A program made the translations under genes and the position numbers. Under the pieces are notes generated by a model. That model saw only the letters and a list, made by a program, of their open reading frames with translations. It was not told the DNA's origin and did not search any database. A stretch of DNA of 64,000 bases, taken from positions 361,081 to 425,080 of the forward strand of contig JAQVIJ010000001.1 in assembly GCA_028695735.1 (NCBI GenBank), given 5' to 3'. Shown piece by piece: positions 37,194 to 38,796 of the stretch (positions are counted from its first letter, which is position 1; the number at the start of each line of letters is the position of its first letter). The DNA is from Deltaproteobacteria bacterium (GTDB lineage Bacteria; Desulfobacterota; Dissulfuribacteria; Dissulfuribacterales; DYLC01).

Positions 37194-38216
37194 CTATCCA
37201 CATTGACCGGTGCGGACGCAACAGGCCAGATTCCAGATTGTAAAACCGCCTGAAACAACGGCTCCAACCCAGACTACGGAGTCCACGGGCAGACCGAACC
37301 GCACAGCTCCGAACCATGCGGCCAGGATAAGGGACAAGGCCACCATGTTTTTGATGCGAACCGAAAGGGAGTGACCGTCCGGATGCAGCCACATCTCCAA
37401 TGCCTGACTCGCGAACTCCGAGGACAGGAGAAAGATGAGCAGCCAAACCGTAATTCCCTGTACATGGTTCATAAGGGCGAGCGGCAACAGCGGCACACAT
37501 ATACCGGACAACAGCATCGTTACAGCGCCCGGCCCCTTCTTGAAACAGGCGGGGAGGCCGATTCGCACATATTGCGCCCCGGACACCATTGTGATACCCA
37601 CTATCACCGCCATATAGGCCAGGATCACGCCTCGGGCATTCAGCCACAGGAGCAAACCAAGCCCAACGCCCAAAAACAGCAACGCTGATTTGAGGCGGGA
37701 TGAGATAGCCCCTTCCTTCCAGTGTATTGCAATGGCCAAAAAAACGGTTGCGATCAGGGCGCCTGCCAGACAGAAGCCTGTCGCAATCTTGTCAGGGAAG
37801 GTGTCTGTGAGCAAAATCAGCCCCATGCCTATCATCTGGAGAGTCGTCTTGAGCTTGGCCAATTCAGTGACTGCCAGCGGACGGTTGAGGCCGGTCATAA
37901 AACGTCTGAGTTCCGTAACCAGATATTCCCGTAAAAATACCAGCCATGCCAGCCAAAGGGGCACTATCTGCAGCTCCACAAGGGGCACGAGGGTTACGGC
38001 TATGAATATCTTGTCTGCAATGGGGTCCAGCATGGCCCCCAGTTTGGTCGGCCCGTCCCTTCTGGCCAAAAGACCGTCCAAATAGTCAGTAATCCCCAGA
38101 ATCGTGTAGGCCAGGATGGCGGCCATACGTGACCATGGCCCTCCATATACCAAAAAGAGTGGAAACGGCAAAAGCAGAATGCGAAGCAATGTCAGTTGGT
38201 TGGCGCTGATCCTCAT
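37194..38216 (-). CDS. CDP-alcohol phosphatidyltransferase, PgsA-like, with C-terminal membrane extension
   Basis: About 340 residues from ATG 38216. The first 175 residues are a PgsA-type phosphatidyltransferase with the full signature: Asp44, Asp47-Gly48, Ala51-Arg52, Gly60, Asp64 and Asp68. It would make phosphatidylglycerol phosphate from CDP-diacylglycerol. The last 165 residues add four or so hydrophobic helices with no family I recognise; normal PgsA is about 180-200. The start is two bases after the TGA of the Cys-rich gene, so the two are coupled. Confidence 0.85.
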   Translation of the reverse strand: MRISANQLTLLRILLLPFPLFLVYGGPWSRMAAILAYTILGITDYLDGLLARRDGPTKLGAMLDPIADKIFIAVTLVPLVELQIVPLWLAWLVFLREYLVTELRRFMTGLNRPLAVTELAKLKTTLQMIGMGLILLTDTFPDKIATGFCLAGALIATVFLAIAIHWKEGAISSRLKSALLFLGVGLGLLLWLNARGVILAYMAVIVGITMVSGAQYVRIGLPACFKKGPGAVTMLLSGICVPLLPLALMNHVQGITVWLLIFLLSSEFASQALEMWLHPDGHSLSVRIKNMVALSLILAAWFGAVRFGLPVDSVVWVGAVVSGGFTIWNLACCVRTGQCG

Positions 38217-38217
38217 C

Positions 38218-38796
38218 TCATGAATGATCTCTTCGGGCATCATCCTGACTGCATAAAGCGTCCCTGTCAATGGACCAGATACGATGGAACGCCTCCAAAA
38301 CCCTACCCCTGGCAGCGGATAAATTTTCTACATATTGAATAAATGTCCTGTAATGACTGGCCGGGCCTATCTCTATCTGCTTCAGCAATGGGTCGCAGAA
38401 ATACCATGTACAGCGATAGGGCCTTACAAGCCTTGGCAGGACGCAACCCATCGCTCCCATGAACTGGCAGGCAGCCCCGGCAGAAATGGACAGGTCATAG
38501 ACCGGCAAGCGGCGTCTCATGGCCAGAAAGCTAACTATATCCCCGAAGGTCGGCATGCCATGACGGTTGGCGCAACATACCACAGCGCAATAAGGGCAGG
38601 TCATGGCTGTGTATTCCTGAATGAATGGGTCTATGACATCAAAGGCCTTTTCGAGCTCTCGCGCCCTTGCAAAGACCTCAGCCAATTGAACTTCATGCCC
38701 TGCAAAAAAGGCCTGAAGGCGATTCAGGGTATCCTGAAACTCCGTGGGTGAGCGAAAATTCAATTCTGGAAAGACCGTTTCATCAAAACCTATCAT
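38218..38796 (-). CDS. Eight-cysteine protein, YkgJ-like pattern (192 aa)
   Basis: Cytosolic by sequence (no signal). Cysteines at 67, 70, 74, 75 (TCPYCAVVCC) and at 110, 118, 129, 134 (ACQFMGAMGC, then RCTWYFC) are arranged like the YkgJ-type CxxC...CC metal-binding proteins, with conserved 'HGMPTFGDIVSF' between. A bound Zn or Fe-S centre is inferred. Translational coupling to the PgsA-like gene suggests a shared function; ksgA precedes it by 21 bases. Confidence 0.7.
   Translation of the reverse strand: MIGFDETVFPELNFRSPTEFQDTLNRLQAFFAGHEVQLAEVFARARELEKAFDVIDPFIQEYTAMTCPYCAVVCCANRHGMPTFGDIVSFLAMRRRLPVYDLSISAGAACQFMGAMGCVLPRLVRPYRCTWYFCDPLLKQIEIGPASHYRTFIQYVENLSAARGRVLEAFHRIWSIDRDALCSQDDARRDHS

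Follow-up and report, generated by a model that had tools for sequence, protein, structure and literature searches.

A long PgsA-like protein with a probable internal repeat, encoded beside a conserved cysteine-rich protein in the Dissulfuribacterales

A 64,000-nucleotide stretch of a Deltaproteobacteria bacterium genome from the order Dissulfuribacterales (GenBank assembly GCA_028695735.1, contig JAQVIJ010000001.1, positions 361,081 to 425,080), here called the window, carries two closely spaced genes on its minus strand. The first, denoted CYS (38218..38796, stop codon included), is an open reading frame (ORF) for a 192-amino-acid (aa) protein with eight conserved cysteines, and the second, denoted PGS (37194..38216, stop codon included, with its ATG at 38216-38214), encodes a 340-aa long form of PgsA that matches PF01066. 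CYS and PGS are a real, tightly spaced, and conserved unit in which PgsA is the constant member, and the two genes are probably co-translated. Taken as a whole, the evidence somewhat favors a two-gene unit that consists of the only PgsA of the organism, built as a long pseudo-dimer, and a probable [4Fe-4S] accessory protein. Under this model, PGS would be the organism's sole phosphatidylglycerophosphate synthase, converting CDP-diacylglycerol and glycerol-3-phosphate to phosphatidylglycerophosphate, with catalysis performed by an ordinary six-helix core. The tail past transmembrane helix 6 (TM6) would repeat TM3-6 in degenerate form, with no catalytic motif, and, by analogy with CHPT1/CEPT1, the human enzymes for phosphatidylcholine and phosphatidylethanolamine, would most likely fill the place of the second subunit of ordinary PgsA dimers, yielding a single-chain pseudo-dimer. 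CYS would be soluble and of the CxxCxxCC/FliB type, probably with a [4Fe-4S] cluster, and would serve as a dispensable accessory, either a regulator or a modifier, of phosphatidylglycerol synthesis rather than as a required subunit.

The junction between the two genes reads TGA-G-ATG (38214..38220, minus strand): the CYS stop codon TGA (38220-38218) and the PGS start are separated by 1 bp. An earlier note, made from the window alone, had both ORFs in the right place but put two bases between them. In the relatives, 18 of 28 CYS-PGS junctions show a 4-bp ATGA overlap (with starts placed by alignment), and the remaining ones range from a 35-bp overlap to a 15-bp gap. The pair was sought in 60 genomes including its own, 46 from the Dissulfuribacterales and 14 others. 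CYS matches were found in 36 of the 60 genomes (the own genome included), that is, in 36/46 of the order and in 0/14 of the others, and the C-terminal part of PGS is present in 45 of the 46 order genomes and, again, in none of the other 14. When match coordinates are combined, the two genes are adjacent and co-directional in 30/46 order genomes, so that the neighborhood on which the earlier note wanted information is indeed shared, and the pair is not a peculiarity of this genome. In five order genomes (G017, G018, G019, G021, and G030), CYS lies on a separate contig and PGS has other neighbors; in G045 (55% complete), both genes sit at contig ends, where adjacency is not judgeable. No CYS match was obtained in 10 of the 46 order genomes, one of which, G032, also gave no match to the PGS tail. 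More broadly, CYS-like proteins were detected in 43 of 247 genomes of a phylum draw, and a contig scan recovered 62 CYS-like loci, mostly from this group and Nitrospirota.

The conserved pairing can be read in a different way, namely, that CYS is unrelated to PgsA and the two genes make up an old, stable operon of convenience, so that the PgsA architecture alone matters; this reading is considered less likely than not but far from negligible. The usual operon consists of housekeeping genes (those for PrmA, an RsmE-like RNA methyltransferase, ManC, an HD dGTPase-like protein, and LptD), and CYS relatives occupy many other contexts in Desulfobacterota and Nitrospirota. Furthermore, CYS is missing beside PGS in at least three lineages: in family f2 (seven genomes examined of 11), where PGS directly follows the ManC gene or an RsmE-like gene with no CYS between, and in the f10/g16 and f5/g17 lineages. 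This absence, which also counts against a functional bond between the two proteins, indicates that CYS is not a strict or essential PgsA subunit, and the possibility of an obligatory subunit was accordingly rejected. Conversely, convenience alone sits poorly with the 4-bp overlaps at 18 junctions and with the fact that the pair is kept together despite differing upstream neighbors. The gene before the pair is KsgA in the window and mostly ManC across the named set (ManC cluster, 19/27), many other loci having the arrangement ManC-CYS-PGS-dGTPase; elsewhere it encodes an MgsA/RarA-type AAA+ ATPase (G006), an alpha/beta hydrolase (G007), or a DksA/TraR-like ORF that scores below its NCBIfam cut-off (G004). 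An action of CYS on phosphatidylglycerol synthesis is proposed only tentatively.

The history of the pair was traced on a tree of 45 long PgsA proteins, in which six CYS-less f2 rows adjoin the window's own group. The nine CYS-less ("solo") rows require three changes on this tree, and the "pair" label requires five, because five rows from outside the order (families f72, f97, and f99) fail to split off from it and a number of branches are long. On the simplest, though not compelling, reading of this tree, in which the deep forks among the long PgsA are not resolved, the pair would be ancestral in the order and lost three times. In seven long-form relatives from outside the order whose upstream side is visible, CYS does not stand beside PGS; in another (L237, from G137), the contig breaks off immediately before this gene.

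The cysteine pattern of CYS offers the main clue to its nature. The window protein has nine cysteines (at positions 67, 70, 74, 75, 110, 118, 129, 134, and 182), one more than the earlier note's eight-cysteine protein, but eight of them are indeed conserved: among 30 aligned CYS proteins, seven cysteines are present in 30/30, C74 in 27/30, and C182 in 1/30, and among 39 diverse aligned proteins, the window included, the same count is 39/39 for seven cysteines and 38/39 for C74. The first half of the cluster, C67-x2-C70-x3-C74-C75 (38572..38598, minus strand; C67, C70, and C75 in 39/39, C74 in 38/39), is paired by hhalign with the cysteines of CxxCxxCC proteins. The second half, C110-Q-F ... 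G-C118 ... R-P ... C129 ... C134 (38395..38469, minus strand), has all four cysteines in 39/39 proteins, and C110, C118, and C129 align on the C-F...GC...RP..C block of PF03692 proteins. As aligned, CYS and the CxxCxxCC proteins (YkgJ, PF03692) both show the succession C...C-x3-CC and then C-x-F...GC...RP..C, in the same order. With FliB, a flagellin lysine methyltransferase, CYS shares the number of eight conserved cysteines, whereas the first motif is C-x2-C-x3-CC in CYS and C-x4-C-x3-CC in FliB; compared with both FliB and PF03692 proteins, the middle part of CYS is shorter, and its eighth conserved cysteine, C134, is unpaired in the alignment. A broad CYS profile compared by hhalign with CxxCxxCC proteins from these genomes and from related ones gave 81% and an E value of 1.2e-5, with seven of eight cysteines paired.

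These likenesses make CYS a probable divergent relative of the CxxCxxCC/FliB proteins, at the level of sequence comparison, although several results pull the other way. A narrow CYS profile gave only 17% and an E value of 0.0015 against the same CxxCxxCC proteins; no relevant Pfam family was assigned to any of 30 CYS relatives or of 10 diverse ones, PF03692 included; and the predicted fold (pLDDT, 90.1) found no convincing relative with Foldseek and VIA, a second look at Foldseek's top 1000 entries, in which no row exceeded Z 3.9. The window protein itself falls in no Pfam or NCBIfam family, and a profile search of the PDB with CYS returned nothing useful. According to one report, FliB, which contains eight conserved cysteines, uses CX4CX3CC to bind one [4Fe-4S] cluster, is located near the membrane, and requires S-adenosylmethionine (SAM) and reducing conditions (PMC8598068). 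Because of the likeness to FliB, CYS may by analogy bind a [4Fe-4S] cluster as well, a proposition for which the odds appear even. The cysteines could instead hold structural zinc, in which case CYS would be no iron-sulfur protein but a scaffold or regulator. The same report credits the PF03692 cysteine motif with chelation of zinc or iron (PMC8598068), but the FliB precedent and the anaerobic life of the named relative Dissulfurimicrobium, as given in another report (PMC8780430), speak for iron-sulfur, and zinc is considered rather unlikely. The earlier note's idea of a metal-binding partner for a phospholipid synthase is thereby upheld in part: the conserved tight pair and the FliB-like cysteine pattern agree with it, whereas an obligatory link does not survive the occurrence of PGS without CYS in f2, in two further lineages, and in the seven outside relatives.

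Several other settings of CYS and PF03692-type genes were noted. On three Nitrospirota contigs (L107, 5842-11099; L108; L118), which make up three of 23 mostly Nitrospirota loci, a CYS relative is encoded just before a FabF-like ketosynthase; in L107, the facing genes encode a GNAT protein, an NAD epimerase, and, with a score below the cut-off, a serine-palmitoyltransferase-like enzyme. Loci of this type are perhaps sphingolipid loci and, if so, would give the CYS family a second link to lipid synthesis. In four genomes, a PF03692 protein is encoded ∼3.2 to 3.9 kb downstream of the CYS match (G004:C3:128058, G005:C1:425464, G006:C1:749871, and G008:C21:56751), and a PF03692-type (CxxCxxCC) ORF was recognized by eye in L078 (9710-10612). 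Solo CYS paralogues with 29 to 37% identity (L085, L092, L103, L084, and L088) adjoin, as judged by eye, genes for endonuclease IV or a sensor histidine kinase.

PGS is very probably the PgsA of the organism, and phosphatidylglycerophosphate synthase activity is predicted from its sequence. In agreement with the earlier note's view that the PgsA core is intact, the protein scores 99.0 bits against PF01066 (gathering cut-off, 22). It contains the CDP-alcohol transferase signature DxxDGxxAR-x7-GxxxDxxxD (D44-D68; 38013..38087, minus strand), in which D44, D47, G48, A51, R52, G60, D64, and D68 are invariant in the long-PgsA alignment. The PgsA-type motif RE-x6-R ... AKxKT (R96-T125; 37842..37931, minus strand) is present in 27/27 long PgsA and in E. 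coli PgsA and, by alignment, in S. aureus PgsA. PGS resembles standard PgsA (E. coli b1912; S. aureus 7DRJ/7DRK) in the catalytic signature, the substrate motif, and the TM1-6 core and differs from it by a TM5/TM6 hairpin, a four-helix tail, and a score of 92.3 bits against the NCBIfam pgsA model TIGR00560, below the curated cut-off of 109.1, as a result of which it is not filed under TIGR00560.

The own genome encodes four PF01066 proteins, namely, PGS, a 180-aa protein of R-D type, PssA, and a PIP-synthase-like protein. The 180-aa paralogue (L001 1501-2046, equal to G000:C2:97226-97726) narrowly passes the TIGR00560 cut-off with 111.3 bits, which raises the possibility that it is the real PgsA and that the long protein, as a CDP-alcohol phosphatidyltransferase, serves a head group different from glycerol-3-phosphate. 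This assignment is improbable. The paralogue belongs to the same superfamily as PGS (hhalign E value, 3.3e-20), but the RE-x6-R...KxKT motif is found in 0/19 of the 180-aa proteins (15 from the order and four from other genomes), all of which have R-D in place of R-E and K-x-TT-x2-Q in place of KxKT. In a tree of the core, the long PgsA form one clade (support, 100/100) and the 180-aa proteins from within and outside the order form another (96/94). Among 17 further proteins from outside genomes, six show the strict PgsA pattern, five show the 180-aa pattern, and six show neither, five of the last (L194, L197, L198, L199, and L201) matching a looser PgsA pattern; at least five of these genomes (G048, G050, G051, G052, and G054) hold one strict-motif PgsA together with one paralogue of the 180-aa type. 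By its motif type, the 180-aa paralogue would resemble the eukaryote-type cardiolipin synthases and may itself be a cardiolipin synthase. The 180-aa gene that passes the pgsA cut-off is thus probably not PgsA, and automatic annotation of the order genomes likely swaps it with the long PgsA.

TIGR00560 was also run over 62 genomes, comprising the 46 of the order, eight outside genomes with the long form, and eight controls chosen for strong matches. The best match reaches at most 118.3 bits in all 46 order genomes and at most 107.2 bits in all eight outside long-form genomes, compared with 153.0 to 167.7 bits in the eight controls; no strong standard pgsA match was found in any of the 54 genomes of the long-form group by this model, and in G102 and G137 (80% complete) the long protein is the sole TIGR00560 match. 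This split of scores between the groups implies that the long form stands where standard PgsA is missing. For the own genome, the earlier note's question of another, standard pgsA is answered in the negative: the candidate at C2:97226-97726, the only second match, lacks the PgsA motif and clusters with the paralogues of other genomes. Apart from the subthreshold score of PGS itself, two observations temper the identification. First, in the core tree, the standard PgsA rows do not form one clade, branch lengths are extreme (10) for the rows of PssA and PIP synthase, and PIP synthase falls inside the long clade, a placement taken for an artifact. Second, four of the 14 outside relatives (G047, 66% complete; G049; G056; and G058) have no PF01066 match above 119 bits, so that long-form genomes are not alone in lacking a strong standard PgsA; these four, as well as G046 and G059, were not among the eight TIGR00560 controls.

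The architecture of the long PgsA was derived from a predicted model built with 27 sequences (pLDDT, 90.1; pTM, 0.88), in which the helices span residues 5-15 and 18-23, 27-54, 58-81, 87-109, 118-139, 144-168, 173-191, 194-227, 229-247, 255-277, 284-307, and 311-336. In the hhalign comparison with standard PgsA, residues 4-230 align with an E value of 3.7e-33 and a gap of ∼50 residues, which identifies helix 194-227 as TM6 and residues ∼142-190 as an insert. Four segments can thus be distinguished, all on the minus strand: the catalytic core TM1-5 (residues 1-141; 37794..38216), which is covered by this alignment and is matched by 7drk (Z 16.1) and 7drj (Z 16.0); a hairpin of two helices that separates TM5 from TM6 (residues ∼142-190; 37647..37793), skipped by hhalign and modeled as helices 144-168 and 173-191; TM6 of the core (residues 191-227; 37536..37646) with the T-x2-S-x3-Y motif, of which T209, S212, and Y216 are invariant; and four C-terminal helices (residues 228-340; 37197..37535). 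The position of TM6 is consistent across methods: the C-terminal part alone aligns with standard PgsA on TM6 (66%, E value of 5.5e-5), VIA superposes 7drk (169 residues, 2.1 Å) on the stretch 3-220 of the model, and in the relative L218, HMMER matches pgsA positions 2-181 to residues 3-225 in a single stretch. The earlier note had described an extra membrane domain of 165 residues. Its size was nearly right (∼162 extra residues), but a single C-terminal domain is ruled out by the presence of TM6 inside it: ∼49 residues (142-190) lie between TM5 and TM6 and ∼113 (228-340) past TM6. Nor does the extension appear to be a separate known domain, given that both sequence and model present it as a degenerate PgsA half plus a hairpin; no convincing Pfam or NCBIfam name was obtained for CYS or for the PGS tail.

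The C-terminal helices are, with good probability, a degenerate copy of TM3-6, a conclusion that draws on profile comparison. A profile of the tail alone, built from 26 order proteins starting at residue 227, was compared with 30 single-unit PgsA, their reversals, the 19 180-aa proteins, and 286 hydrophobic background ORFs. The top 18 targets are all single-unit PgsA, the best with 28.3 bits (E value of 9e-7 at Z 10000), and the matches fall within residues 73-182, mostly 73-165, corresponding to TM3-6, with the conserved EF of the tail aligned with the RE that TM4 contributes to the PgsA motif. The best scores on the controls are 0.3 bits for reversed PgsA, 6.4 for the 180-aa proteins, and 5.2 for the background ORFs, and 20 column-shuffled tail profiles reach at most 11.2 bits on PgsA and 10.5 on the background. 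The structural comparison points in the same direction. With VIA, the PGS model matches four choline/ethanolamine phosphotransferase entries (8ERO, 8GYW, 8UL9, and 9UET) over residues 1-340, the four Z scores being 15.9, 15.5, 15.4, and 15.3 in descending order, with 276 to 285 residues aligned at 4.4 to 4.6 Å; other six-helix CDP-alcohol phosphotransferases follow at Z 9.3 to 10.5, with the best unrelated entry scoring 7.6. In these eukaryotic enzymes, TM7-10 superpose on the protein's own TM3-6, both in CEPT1 (PMC10156783) and in CHPT1, where the repeat is said to be unrecognizable by sequence (PMC10182977). PGS, as judged from model and profile, has the same succession of six catalytic helices and four TM3-6-related helices without the catalytic motif. 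However, the identity is only 13 to 15%, the repeat of PGS is readable by sequence profile, and PGS has a PgsA-type substrate motif and two more helices, those of the hairpin. PGS also lacks the Glu and His of the CHPT1/CEPT1 motif G2ExxD3HxxD4; the window protein reads G60-A-M-L-D64-P-I-A-D68, with an invariant P65 in the place of the His.

Some features of these comparisons weaken the case for a repeat. The tail signal is below an E value of 1e-3 in just 8 of the 30 single-unit PgsA (22 lie above it), seven of these eight having been fetched from earlier genome-search matches. Overall, 18 of the 30 targets came from prior hit lists; of the 12 that did not, L192 scores 21.2 bits and the other 11 score at most 8.5. 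The CHPT1/CEPT1 match comes from the second look at the Foldseek entries and rests on a predicted model, and Foldseek itself puts PgsA first (E value of 1.5e-3), with CHPT1/CEPT1 not among the best 50 rows listed. A profile search of the PDB with the C-terminal part of PGS yielded PgsA 7drj at an E value of no better than 1.2. The tail could also be an unrelated domain of membrane helices, its likeness to TM3-6 and CHPT1/CEPT1 being that of any helical bundle; such bundles can score a high Z by chance, as the tool itself notes, and with hhalign the tail matched 12 standard PgsA at only 17% (E value of 0.0015). This alternative is nevertheless quite unlikely given that 18 single-unit PgsA outrank every background, 180-aa, and reversed target and that the four phosphotransferase entries stand so far above the next unrelated one.

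The long form extends beyond the order. Outside the order, a first phylum search with a narrower profile yielded weak matches only. Across 395 phylum genomes, matches spanning at least 276 of the 347 positions of the long-PgsA profile came from 17 order genomes and from 10 others (G314, G386, G305, G102, G065, G137, G196, G285, G395, and G243), which belong to families f31, f72, f97, and f99. Many weak matches of a further profile (A8) fall on ORFs of ∼210 aa that are not long forms, several of them being single-unit PgsA matched by the tail profile. Two proteins from family f39 (L235 and L236, from G343 and G413) appear by eye to have the six-helix core, no hairpin, and approximately two extra helices, and are perhaps an intermediate or reduced form. 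With respect to neighbors, a DksA/TraR-like C4 zinc-finger ORF is located upstream of the long pgsA in L220 (1179-2092), L238 (2911-3876), and L168 (2253-2750), and an unnamed protein with CPxCHAVFRDKRW...CPGC is encoded upstream in L220, L235, L236, and L238. In the window, lgt and ksgA lie upstream of the pair on the same strand, and a convergent gene for an SLT-type lytic transglycosylase lies downstream.

PgsA, a central lipid enzyme, follows a conserved plan of six helices, and an order of sulfur bacteria, together with members of four more families of the phylum, appears to live on an internally duplicated version. A 2023 paper calls TM7-10 of CHPT1/CEPT1 eukaryote-only, and the literature on this duplication also mentions bacterial proteins with two tandem units. 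If the link between the two genes is real, CYS would be a cluster protein tied to the phosphatidylglycerol step, a case for which no parallel was found in the open-licence literature searched. A bolder combination, in which CYS is an oxygen-sensitive [4Fe-4S], SAM-using modifier of PgsA or its lipid and the long PgsA is a prokaryotic pseudo-dimer that arose by the eukaryote-type route of duplication and loss, is a long shot; if true, it would amount to an iron-sulfur-linked phosphatidylglycerol synthase built on a plan known until now from eukaryotic enzymes. Because the repeat is readable and shorter relatives exist, the duplication route is open to direct examination in these bacteria.

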